NCBI GenBank assembly: GCA_024693715.1
Contig: JAILKS010000013.1
Coordinates: forward strand, 1-64,000
Source of the DNA: Treponema sp.
GTDB taxonomy: Bacteria > Spirochaetota > Spirochaetia > Treponematales > Treponemataceae
Length of the DNA stretch: 64,000 bases
Reading direction: 5' to 3'
Shown: positions 13,754 to 52,532 of the stretch, in pieces
Numbering within the stretch: the first letter of the stretch is position 1
Layout: each line of letters starts with the position of its first letter
Position numbers and translations under genes: made by a program
The notes under the pieces: model-generated
Told to the model about the DNA's origin: nothing
Database searches by the model: none
The model's input: the letters and a program-made list of their open reading frames with translations, nothing else

Positions 13754-14662
13754 ATGCCAATAAAGATTCAGTCAGATTTACCTGCATGTCATGTTCTTGA
13801 GCAGGAAAACATTTTTGTGATGACAGAAAAAAGAGCTGCTTCTCAGGATATTCGTCCGCTTAAAATTGCTATTGTTAATCTGATGCCTACAAAAGAAGTG
13901 ACGGAAACACAGCTTTTAAGATTGCTTGGAAATACTCCGCTTCAGATTGAAATTTCATTAGTCCGCATGGAAAATCATGACAGTAAGAATACACAGAAGG
14001 ATTATCTCGATAAATTTTACATTCCGTCCAGTGAGATTTTTAAACAGAAATTTGACGGAATGATAATTACTGGTGCACCGGTTGAACAGCTTGCATTTGA
14101 ATCGGTTGATTACTGGAAAGAGCTTTGTTCAATTATGGATTATGCAAAGGAAAATGTTTATTCAACTCTTTATGTCTGCTGGGGAAGTTTTGCGGGGCTT
14201 TATCATCATTATGGAATAAAAAAATATCCGCTGCAGAAAAAACTTTCCGGTGTTTTTATGAATGAACGAACGACAGACGGAGAGCCTCTTTTGCGTGGCT
14301 TTGATGATACTTTCCCTATTCCTCAGTCACGTCATACAACACTTAAAAAGGAAGATGTTCAGAATTGCAGGGATCTGGTCATTCTTGCAGAATCGGCAGA
14401 AGCAGGAGTTACAATCATAAAGTCAAAGGATAACCGTGAGATTTTTATGACGGGTCATCTTGAATATGATACCTTGACGCTTGCAGAAGAATATTACAGA
14501 GATACTGAAAAAGGGATGAAGGTTCCGCTTCCGAAGAATTATTTTCCTACGAACAATGTAAACAGAATGCCGGCAAGCTACTGGAGAAGTACAGCGCATT
14601 TGTTCTATACCAACTGGTTGAATTATTACGTTTATCAGGCAACACCGTTTAATTTCGTTTAA
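13754..14662 (+). CDS. metAA: Homoserine O-acetyltransferase (MetA family, predicted acetyl-CoA specific)
   Basis: 302 residues, the standard MetA length. It acylates L-homoserine as the first committed step of methionine synthesis. The catalytic Cys142 (VCWGSFAGL), His235 and Glu237 (FMTGHLEYD) fall at the canonical positions. Residue 111 is Glu (ITGAPVEQL); in this family Glu111 is associated with acetyl-CoA use and Gly111 with succinyl-CoA, so an acetyltransferase is predicted. An AGGAG lies 8 bases before the ATG. Other methionine genes are not in the window. The gene converges with the radical SAM gene with one base between the stops. Confidence 0.93.
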   Translation: MPIKIQSDLPACHVLEQENIFVMTEKRAASQDIRPLKIAIVNLMPTKEVTETQLLRLLGNTPLQIEISLVRMENHDSKNTQKDYLDKFYIPSSEIFKQKFDGMIITGAPVEQLAFESVDYWKELCSIMDYAKENVYSTLYVCWGSFAGLYHHYGIKKYPLQKKLSGVFMNERTTDGEPLLRGFDDTFPIPQSRHTTLKKEDVQNCRDLVILAESAEAGVTIIKSKDNREIFMTGHLEYDTLTLAEEYYRDTEKGMKVPLPKNYFPTNNVNRMPASYWRSTAHLFYTNWLNYYVYQATPFNFV

Positions 14663-14663
14663 T

Positions 14664-15746
14664 CTATTTATTTAAAAGCTCGTAGTTGCAGTGAGCCGGA
14701 CCTGAAATCATGTCATGGTGAAGATGAAGTCCGTTGCCAAGACATTTATTCCACTCCCTGCATTTTTTACATTTTCCTTTTTTTGTCCATTTCCGGTTCC
14801 GTAGGTTTTCGAAATGATTGTTCCATACGTCCATAAAATTGTCTTTATAGATATTTCCCTGAATAAAATCCTTTGAACGTACACTAAGACAAGCAGATAT
14901 GTCTCCATTGCACATTACCGAACCTACATTTATTCCGCCCCGACAGAAGAAAAAGAAATCTCTTGCTTTAAGTTCATATTTTCCAAGCCATCCTTCGCAT
15001 GAATAATTTAAATGAATTGAACTATTTTTTTCATCCTTGTATGAGCGGGTTTCAACGATAAAATCCATCAGTTGTTTATATTCATCTTTCGTAAGTGCCA
15101 GATTATTTTGTTCCGCCCGTCCTTCTGGAAAAATTGAAAAAATCCGCCAGTGGCTGATACCAAGCTCAATAAGATTTTTTCTAAGCTCCTTCAGGATATT
15201 CAGATTTTTATTATGAACGCAGGTAATTACATCGTAAGCAAATCTGTGCGGATTTTTTTTCTGATAATCAACGGCAAGTTTTATTCCTTCGCATGTGTGT
15301 TTATAGGATTCCGGATTTTTCCGAAGATAAGTATGTTCCTTTTCAAGTCCATCCAGACTAAAGCTTATGGAACTCATGCCTGCTTGTACGAGGGATTCAA
15401 ATCTTTGCGGGGTAAGGAGCATTGCATTTGTTACGATGCCCCATTTAAAACCGCGCCGTTTTATTTCTAGTCCTGCAACCTCAAGATCCTTACGAAGCAG
15501 AGGTTCTCCGCCTGTAATACATACAGTAAGCTTTTCTGATTTGATATTATCAAGGACATTTACAAAATCTTTGACAGGCATGTCCGGTGTGTCGGATATT
15601 TTAAGACAGTCGCTTCCGCAGTGAAGGCAGTTTAAATTGCATCTGAGTGTGCATTCCCAAAAGAGATAATTCAACTCATGTTTTTTTGTGATGCTTTTTC
15701 TGTATAATCTGAAGATAAAATTTTTGAACGACATCAAAGAACGCAT
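14664..15746 (-). CDS. Radical SAM/SPASM enzyme of a radical SAM/lipoprotein pair
   Basis: 360 residues. The 4Fe-4S cluster motif CNLNCLHC (C36, C40, C43) is followed by the SAM-contacting GGEP (VCITGGEPLLRKDL). The C-terminal ~90 residues hold a SPASM-type cysteine set (CRGGINVGSVMCNGD, CLSV, CKKCREWNKC, HCNYE) for auxiliary clusters, typical of enzymes that modify peptides or proteins. It lies 18 bases downstream of a 64-residue lipoprotein gene on the same strand. This matches, as far as I recall, the NCBI rSAM/lipoprotein system pair known from Bacteroidetes and Treponema. The substrate is inferred to be that lipoprotein; the chemistry is unknown. Confidence 0.85.
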   Translation of the reverse strand: MRSLMSFKNFIFRLYRKSITKKHELNYLFWECTLRCNLNCLHCGSDCLKISDTPDMPVKDFVNVLDNIKSEKLTVCITGGEPLLRKDLEVAGLEIKRRGFKWGIVTNAMLLTPQRFESLVQAGMSSISFSLDGLEKEHTYLRKNPESYKHTCEGIKLAVDYQKKNPHRFAYDVITCVHNKNLNILKELRKNLIELGISHWRIFSIFPEGRAEQNNLALTKDEYKQLMDFIVETRSYKDEKNSSIHLNYSCEGWLGKYELKARDFFFFCRGGINVGSVMCNGDISACLSVRSKDFIQGNIYKDNFMDVWNNHFENLRNRKWTKKGKCKKCREWNKCLGNGLHLHHDMISGPAHCNYELLNK

Positions 15747-15764
15747 TTAACGATTTATAATCAT

Positions 15765-15959
15765 TTAGTTTTCAGGAACTTCCTGAATTATTTCAGAATC
15801 GTTTTTGTTTTCATTTTCTTCTGTCTGTTCGGTAAGGTATTTTTCAAAATCCTCATCTGGTGGAACTACCATGCCGTAACATGAAACGAGCATTCCTATT
15901 CCAAAAAGAGTTCCAACGAGGGCGACTATTTTTTTCCATGTCCATGTAATTTTTTTCAT
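15765..15959 (-). CDS. Small lipoprotein, predicted partner or substrate of the radical SAM enzyme
   Basis: 64 residues from the ATG at 15959, which has a GGAG about 8 bases upstream. The longer tracked ORF (from 16013) would begin inside the ilvC terminator. Signal peptide KKITWTWKKIVALVGTLFGIGMLVSC with lipobox LVSC; Cys27 becomes the lipidated N-terminus. The mature part is only 38 residues, starting CYGMVVPPDEDFEKYL and continuing Glu/Asn-rich. Aromatic, glycine and proline residues right next to the lipid anchor are the plausible modification zone. It is the first gene of the two-gene unit with the radical SAM enzyme. Confidence 0.8.
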   Translation of the reverse strand: MKKITWTWKKIVALVGTLFGIGMLVSCYGMVVPPDEDFEKYLTEQTEENENKNDSEIIQEVPEN

Positions 15960-15999
15960 ATTTTTTTCTCCAGTTCCTTCAATAAGTGTATAGGCAAAA

Positions 16000-16034
16000 A
16001 TAATCCCTGTCAATTTATTTATGACAGGGATTGT
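16000..16034 (-). terminator. Rho-independent terminator of ilvC
   Basis: An 11-bp perfect inverted repeat AATCCCTGTCA / TGACAGGGATT with a 9-base loop. On the minus strand it is followed by TTATTTTTGCC. It separates ilvC from the lipoprotein/radical SAM unit. Confidence 0.85.
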
Positions 16035-16049
16035 TATTTTGAAAAATGA

Positions 16050-17528
16050 TTAAAGGACTGGCTTCATTGCTGTCATGTAAGCACGTAATCTTCGTCCTAC
16101 AGCTTCAATAGGATGATTTCTGATTTCTGCATTAACTGCAACAAGTTCAGCGTTGTTTACGCCTGTATCTTTAAGCTCAAGTCCTTTACCGATAACGTCT
16201 GTGTGGAGGTTTGGCATAAGGTCTTTAGCCATCATTGGAGCGGCTACACGGCTGAATAAGTAGCATCCGTATTCGGCTGTGTCGGAAATAACGCGGTTCA
16301 TTTCGTAGAGGCGTTTGCGGTCGATGAGGTTTGCAATAAGAGGAACTTCGTGGAGCGATTCGTAGTATGCGCTTTCAGGTTTAATTCCTGCGTCTACCAT
16401 TGTTTCGAATGCAAGTTCACAGCCTGCTTTTACCATTGCTACAAGAAGGATTCCCTTGTCAAAGTATTCCTGTTCAGAAATTTCTTCGCTTGATTCAGCG
16501 TTCTTTTCGAATGGAAGGTTTCCTGTGTCTTCGCGCCATGCAAGTAAATCTTTATCTCCTGCTTTCCAGTCTTCCATCATAGTAGAACTGAATTTTCCGC
16601 TGATGATGTCGTCCATGTGCTTCTGGTAGAGTGGAGCAAGGAGCTTTTTAATATCTTTTGAAATTTGATTTGCCTTGATTTTTGCAGGGTTAGAAAGGCG
16701 GTCCATCATGTTTGTAATTCCACCCCATTTGAGTGCTTCACTTACAACGTTCCAGCCGTGCATCAAAAGCTTTGTTGCATATTCAGGAGAAATTCCTTCG
16801 CTAACCATTTTATCATAACATACGATTGTTCCTGCCTGGAGCATACCGCACAAAATTGTCTGTTCGCCCATAAGGTCAGATTTAACTTCTGCAATGAAAG
16901 AGCTTTCAAGTACGCCGGCCTTAGAACCGCCCATACCAACTGCAAGTGCTTTTGCATAAGCCCATCCTTTGCCTTCAGGATCATTTGCCGGGTGAACTGC
17001 GATTAAATCAGGAACACCGAATCCTCTCTGGAATTCGTGCCATACTTCAGTTCCAGGTCCTTTTGGAGCGCACATAATAACTGTAATATCATCACGGATA
17101 ATCATTCCTTCTTCAATCATGTTAAATCCGTGTGAATACCACAATGCAGAGCCTTTCTTCATTTTTGACATAACTTCTGTAATTACAGGAGTGTGCTGTT
17201 TATCTGGAGTAAGGTTTCCGACTAAATCAGCTGTAGGAATCATTTCATCATAAGTTCCAACTTTAAAACCGTTTTCTGTTGCATTTTTCCATGACTGGCG
17301 TTTTTCTTTAATTGCCGCATCTCTTAATGCATAACTTACATCAAGTCCTGAGTCACGAAGACAAAGTCCCTGATTCAAGCCCTGTGCACCACAACCGACA
17401 ATGACAATTTTTTTGCCTTTAAGAGCATTTACTCCGTCTGCAAATTCATCCTTTGACATTGAACGGCAGTGACCTAACTGTAAACGTGCTTCGCGCCATG
17501 GAATTTTATTGAAATAATTTTCACCCAT
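16050..17528 (-). CDS. ilvC: Ketol-acid reductoisomerase, class II
   Basis: Converts acetolactate or acetohydroxybutyrate to dihydroxy acids with NADPH and Mg2+, the second common step of valine and isoleucine synthesis. At 492 residues it is the long class II form. The Rossmann motif is [15 protein letters not shown] (~41-55). The C-terminal region carries the duplicated knotted domain, with metal-site acidic residues in [16 protein letters not shown] and the repeat in [17 protein letters not shown]. It is divergent from an Lrp/AsnC regulator across 167 bases, which makes amino-acid-responsive control likely. Its own terminator follows. Confidence 0.96.
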
Positions 17529-42937: not shown

Positions 42938-43010
42938 GGTTCCTTAGCTCAGTCGGTAGAGCAACGGACTGTTAATCCGTGTGTCGCTGGTTCAAGCCCA
43001 GCAGGAGCCG
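42938..43010 (+). tRNA. tRNA-Asn (GTT)
   Basis: A 73-base cloverleaf. Acceptor GGTTCCT pairs with AGGAGCC (one G-T), D-arm GCTCAGTCGGTAGAGC, anticodon stem ACGGA/TCCGT with loop CTGTTAA (anticodon GTT), T-arm CTGGTTCAAGCCCAG, discriminator G. CCA is not encoded. A T-rich run (TTATTATTTTTTTT) starts immediately after it and may assist termination before the convergent M16-like gene 3 bases away. Confidence 0.97.
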
Positions 43011-52446: not shown

Positions 52447-52532
52447 TGCCGGGAACCAGAATCGAACTGGCACGTCGGTCGCCCGACACAGGATTTTAAG
52501 TCCTGGGCGTCTACCAATTCCGCCATCCCGGC
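52447..52532 (-). tRNA. tRNA-Leu (TAA)
   Basis: An 86-base class II tRNA with a long variable arm. Acceptor GCCGGGA / TCCCGGC, D-arm region TGGCGGAATTGGTAGACGC, anticodon stem CAGGA/TCCTG with loop CTTAAAA (anticodon TAA), variable arm TGTCGGGCGACCGACGT, T-arm CCAGTTCGATTCTGG, discriminator A. CCA is not encoded. A TATAAT lies about 13 bases upstream on the minus strand. Confidence 0.97.

Follow-up and report, generated by a model that had tools for sequence, protein, structure and literature searches.

The locus analysed here raises the question of what links a radical SAM/SPASM enzyme to a lipoprotein whose mature part comprises only 38 residues. The window, a stretch of 64,000 nt of Treponema sp. 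DNA from the 2.63-Mb draft genome of a gut bacterium, carries both open reading frames on the minus strand, where an earlier sequence-only reading had placed them. The lipoprotein gene (15765-15959) has an ATG start codon with GGAG just 5′ of it and is followed after 18 nt by the enzyme gene (14664-15746). That reading had also described the unit as isolated from its neighbours, which was confirmed on both sides. On the upstream side ilvC ends at 16050, and beyond it folding revealed an 11-bp intrinsic terminator hairpin at approximately 16001-16035 on the minus strand (-18 kcal/mol, z -5.95). On the downstream side the convergent metA ends at 14662, with a single base between both genes. A sigma-70-like promoter, TTGACA-17-TACACT (15985-16013, minus strand), is suggested by a consensus match only and overlaps the downstream arm of the ilvC terminator. 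In the closest relative (locus L055) the order metA/rSAM-lipoprotein/ilvC is identical, the neighbours are kept on both sides, and the partner starts with CYGMVVPPDEDFEKY. The sole Rfam matches within the window were tRNA genes at 42938-43010 (plus strand) and 52447-52532 (minus strand).

The lipoprotein of 64 aa reads MKKITWTWKKIVALVGTLFGIGMLVS for the signal peptide (residues 1-26, lipobox LVSC) and CYGMVVPPDEDFEKYLTEQTEENENKNDSEIIQEVPEN for the mature part, which is acidic (computed pI of the lipoprotein about 4.05) and begins with CYGMVVPP, encoded at 15858-15881 on the minus strand with CYG at 15881-15873. It is matched by the N-terminal lipoprotein profile A2 at an E-value of 9.5e-23, while the TIGR04134 model (lipo_with_rSAM, cut-off 39.8 bits) gave no match, so that membership of this family was ruled out; a longer partner from T. 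zioleckii scores 41.4 against the same model. The window protein is thus a short form lacking the usual beta-sandwich. Matches of the small protein to Pfam DUF4538 and EpsG and to NCBIfam Orr and MotA stayed below cut-off, look driven by the signal peptide and were discarded.

The enzyme (360 aa) matches PF04055 (Radical_SAM), PF13186 (SPASM) and, over residues 11-346, TIGR04133 (rSAM_w_lipo) with 443.2 bits at a curated cut-off of 425; it is the only protein of the draft genome above this cut-off. The pair is therefore already a computational family, TIGR04133/TIGR04134, of the kind named in the sequence-only reading, although of the two proteins searched only the enzyme matches its model. 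Cysteines C36, C40 and C43 of the CxxxCxxC radical SAM motif are invariant, as are C47, C250, C268, C286, C326, C329 and C335, giving ten invariant cysteines across 26 aligned relatives; the SPASM cysteine that usually follows CxxCxxxxxC is replaced by GxG in these enzymes. An AlphaFold2 model (pLDDT 92.8) has its nearest solved folds among the peptide maturases SuiB, a sactipeptide-type thioether maturase and SkfB, besides anSME and BlsE, all of them, including the likeness to anSME, at superfamily level only. The anaerobic sulfatase maturase model TIGR03942 was absent among the best 25 families, and the remaining families shown were scored far under their cut-offs, including TIGR04103 (83.6 bits, cut-off 725). 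The next families by score were the heme enzymes AhbD and NirJ2 (111 bits each, cut-off 500). These scores would be consistent with an enzyme whose substrate lies elsewhere, as a small molecule or heme-type compound, and with a lipoprotein that only happens to lie next to it or that binds to it.

The distribution of both genes speaks against such a substrate. TIGR04133 enzymes were found in 27 of 195 Treponemataceae genomes (14%), and the lipoprotein N-terminus profile in 22, all of them within the 27 enzyme carriers and none among the 168 others (Fisher p ~1e-24). The arrangement of enzyme and lipoprotein is not due to chance, and the partnership proposed in the sequence-only reading is borne out; the small gene is conserved beside the enzyme in relatives. 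Enzyme-carrying genomes without a profile match hold other partners with an X-Tyr-Gly (XYG) sequence, for example at L045, L064, L066 and L067 and, of RiPP type, at L058. In the order of Bacteroides graminisolvens the pair occurs in about 23% of the sampled genomes (57/247), and human-gut species such as Parabacteroides distasonis carry it; the NCBI label for the relatives' partners is 'radical SAM-associated putative lipoprotein'. Some Treponema genomes have two or three TIGR04133 enzymes, as in G155 (L054, L071, L073) and in G146, where L049 and L072 form a close pair on one contig.

The partners were then compared for shared residues. YG is present in 68 of the 72 distinct lipoprotein ORFs adjoining TIGR04133 enzymes (mean 28.7 and maximum 40 in 500 shuffles) and 49 carry YGxP (1.4 on average after shuffling, 6 at most); where YG is lacking, the ORF is in most cases an unrelated neighbour or an additional lipoprotein next to one with YG. 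In 22 aligned longer partners Tyr and Gly are invariant. The usual pattern is X-Tyr-Gly, one residue, then Pro. X is the lipobox Cys itself at 31 of 94 first sites; at the others E, M, V, K, L or A predominate, Bacteroidales partners frequently having Glu or Lys, and the distance to the Cys is mostly no more than about 20 residues. The signal peptides are unusually alike (xxKIxWTWKKI...LGIGTLTSC). What follows the anchor in most partners is a beta-sandwich (carboxypeptidase-regulatory, transthyretin or CnaB type). In the window protein and those of L009, L020, L055, L061 and L062 there is nothing more than a short tail, which is mostly acidic; short-tail partners are also found in L116, L119, L124 and L129. 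A second, unrelated partner architecture was noted in L118, L120, L127 and L131, which encode coiled-coil-like lipoproteins with repeated [CVLA]YG[ST]PE sites. At L130 (495-1325, minus strand) the partner has no lipobox Cys but an ordinary-looking signal peptide with QYGAP at the predicted mature N-terminus, so that the system may be able to do without a lipid anchor.

All conservation in the aligned partners points to a single Tyr-Gly site beside the lipid anchor, and this dipeptide is very probably what the enzyme modifies. A modification close to the anchor, as had been expected earlier, is supported by this predicted site, while the crosslink or epimerisation expected along with it fares less well: the Tyr-Gly dipeptide is conserved and a crosslink partner residue is not. 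Crosslinks between an aromatic residue and the residue two positions on are made by several SPASM enzymes, and the conserved Tyr, the repeated cores and the presence of crosslinking maturases such as SuiB among the closest solved folds would suit a Tyr-centred crosslink (a three-residue cyclophane or an ether) within YGx(P), made with no splicing of the backbone. However, the residue after YG may be any of M, T, V, S, C, G, A or P, so that no acceptor is conserved; short and long partners have no further residue in common save the lipobox and, often, a Pro, and the Gly directly after the Tyr, which spliceases require, is invariant. Such a crosslink is accordingly regarded as unlikely. Epimerisation or crosslinking at a conserved pair of residues was rejected, as no second conserved residue is present beyond Tyr-Gly and the usual Pro. 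The lack of a conserved crosslink partner beside a conserved Tyr-Gly would instead indicate backbone chemistry of the splicease type.

Some other alteration of Tyr-Gly, by loss of the Tyr side chain, epimerisation, C-alpha oxidation or cleavage of the backbone, might change the processing or sorting of the lipoprotein, and the placement of the motif, often right at the lipobox Cys, agrees with it. To our knowledge, known peptide epimerases demand no X-Tyr-Gly motif. Kinship and motif jointly favour spliceases over these reactions, which we consider rather improbable.

The kinship of the enzyme to splicease families was examined by comparison with TIGR04103 (rSAM_nif11_3), which we take to be the PlpX family; this assignment is backed by a Nostoc plasmid on which a TIGR04103 enzyme (853 bits) directly follows a Nif11 precursor ending in ALYGLPPELF and is itself followed by a 71-aa protein where PlpY would stand. 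Among published systems, PlpXY excises tyramine at XYG, with MYG and LYG as natural sites (PMC10533398; PMC11002830); PlpXY tags contain LYGLPI and GYGVVFP (PMC10533398), PlpX substrates include LYGLPI and MYGVVFP, PlpX has been assigned to IPR026482 in a review, and PlpY is a truncated RRE (PMC11002830). In an unrooted tree comprising one TIGR04103 sequence, few splicease sequences without PlpX, and few outgroup families, TIGR04133 and the splicease-like enzymes were separated from MftC, NirJ, TIGR04347, TIGR04053 and AhbD-like enzymes with SH-aLRT 94.4 and UFBoot 95, support within the tree being uneven. The long branches PqqE, Collinsella and L138 were left out of this tree, and resolution was poor when they were included. 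A grouping of TIGR04133 with AhbD-like enzymes was rejected by the AU test (p 6e-4), as was one of splicease-like with AhbD-like enzymes (p 1.6e-5). The heme-pathway kinship hinted at by raw HMM scores was thereby ruled out. Additionally, 12 alignment positions are exclusive to TIGR04133 and the splicease-like enzymes, compared with 6 and 2 in the alternative pairings; examples are HCGS after the SAM motif, G252, an aromatic residue at 253, E258 and R262. In this tree no sampled family stands closer to the splicease families than TIGR04133.

The family also serves precursors of RiPP type, as two Spirochaete loci that may stem from one species (L029, L058) indicate. Here the TIGR04133 enzyme (458 bits in L029) is followed by double-glycine precursors, among them MKELKEKINDYVINLLLEVTGEDLDEVSGG-LGLGPCYGCPSR and ...LDEITGG-YCVGYGGLPAR, with the ends GPCYGCPSR and CVGYGGLPAR, and X-Tyr-Gly is the site that these precursors have in common with the lipoproteins. 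The operon (L029:4076-4669, also in L058), which encodes a 403-aa second SPASM-like protein, the TIGR04133 enzyme and three precursors ending in CYGCPSR, GYGGLPAR and PYAGPFGR, looks like an undescribed RiPP cluster. Because precursors take the place of the lipoprotein at L029, because Tyr-Gly is kept in the partner across unrelated folds, and because an AhbD-like grouping is rejected, a small-molecule or heme-type substrate is very improbable. XYG sequences were also seen beside other related enzymes. In Bacteroidota, splicease-like enzymes under the TIGR04103 cut-off were noted at L134 and L135, and a protein upstream of the latter (L135:2622-3149, minus strand) has the C-terminus LLYGTPPVPLYQAPSK. 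An unannotated peptide on an Agathobacter rectalis plasmid (L090:2743-2955) ends in FGPVMYGTGVRM (VMYGTGVRM), and its gene immediately precedes those of a splicease-like radical SAM enzyme and an MFS transporter.

What the analysis establishes is the gene pair, its co-occurrence, the Tyr-Gly motif and the kinship to splicease families. On these grounds a lipoprotein splicease is the function that we moderately favour for the TIGR04133 enzyme of the pair. The enzyme would act on the pre-lipoprotein in the cytoplasm before Sec export, an order that we infer from the need of radical SAM chemistry for a reduced site and from the leader-like conservation of the signal peptide, through which the substrate would probably be recognised. 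SAM would be opened, a hydrogen would be taken from the Tyr, and C8H9NO, the equivalent of tyramine, would be removed at X-Tyr-Gly, with X-CO rejoined to CO-NH-Gly and a mass change of -135.07 Da. The lipobox Cys, which occupies X in the window protein, would become the homologated residue; its amino group, alpha-carbon and thiol would remain, so that lipidation by Lgt and cleavage by Lsp are still conceivable. The modified lipoprotein is predicted to be an acidic tail tethered to the membrane and bearing a reactive alpha-ketoamide at, or close to, its lipid anchor. Spliceotide ketoamides have been reported as protease inhibitors (PMC11117315; PMC10373908), and by analogy the product might serve in defence or regulation, for example by inhibiting proteases covalently. 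Points that weigh against splicing include the missing RRE partner and the altered SPASM cysteines described below, and the small number of splicease sequences in the tree; moreover, the Tyr-Gly motif alone could suit another Tyr-directed reaction, and the Glu or Lys found as X in Bacteroidales partners are residues for which no splicease precedent was at hand. The wider proposal is that the TIGR04133 family as a whole consists of lipoprotein spliceases, which in gut Bacteroidales and Treponemataceae give cell-envelope lipoproteins an alpha-ketoamide (beta-amino acid) in the backbone, either at the lipidated Cys or next to it, the acylated Cys itself being homologated in some; such a type of protein would be previously undescribed. 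This proposal seems to us about evenly balanced.

The system had been put forward as undescribed, which does not hold for the pair as such, named in TIGRFAM/NCBIfam models, but does appear to hold for its chemistry in the literature searched, where no paper, product or stated chemistry was found for TIGR04133/TIGR04134 or for radical SAM ketoamide lipoproteins. The 2022 splicease survey of Scott et al. (Chem 8:2659), which deals with ribosomal beta-amino acid peptides and proteins, may already cover TIGR04133. The chemistry is known elsewhere; its combination with lipoproteins and with a partner cut down to 38 residues seems to be new, judging by the literature searched. For an orphan pair, one dipeptide site and one mass change (-135.07 Da) are now named. 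If the proposal is true, splicease chemistry reaches from secreted peptides to membrane-anchored proteins, an electrophilic ketoamide is displayed on the bacterial envelope, entire families of lipoproteins in gut bacteria may have a backbone with an unusual group that is chemically reactive, and protein labelling would gain a very compact natural substrate in the short Treponema form.

Among the closest known systems is the TIGR04133/TIGR04134 pair itself: the window enzyme exceeds the cut-off of the model and has a lipoprotein partner, but this partner is the 38-residue short form with neither a beta-sandwich nor a TIGR04134 match. MftC, PqqE and AhbD/NirJ belong to the same radical SAM/SPASM superfamily, and MftC also acts on a Tyr; however, their substrates and motifs are different, and MftC, NirJ and the AhbD-like enzymes stand on the opposite side of the tree from TIGR04133. 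TIGR03913 (rad_SAM_trio, GDL motif) lies near TIGR04103 in the tree and adjoins small proteins with XYG or XYx near the N-terminus, but these are soluble DUF1843 proteins rather than lipoproteins and the YG is not strict, since YA and YM occur. From the PlpX spliceases the window unit differs in its substrate, a lipoprotein that has a signal peptide where PlpX substrates have a Nif11/NHLP leader, and in its SPASM cysteines, where the Cys of GGC in splicease-like enzymes is replaced (GNG or GGG) and Cys 250 is an extra invariant residue; the window enzyme and the Nostoc TIGR04103 protein are 26% identical. PlpX works with the RRE protein PlpY, whereas no RRE partner was found adjacent to the TIGR04133 unit or by a PqqD/RRE profile search of the genome at E 0.1; as PlpY is truncated, a divergent RRE could escape such profiles. 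In both systems a radical SAM/SPASM enzyme sits beside substrates of the form X-Tyr-Gly-x-(x)-Pro, represented by CYG in the window protein, and the HCGS and G-aromatic-x4-E-x3-R positions are common to PlpX-type enzymes and TIGR04133.
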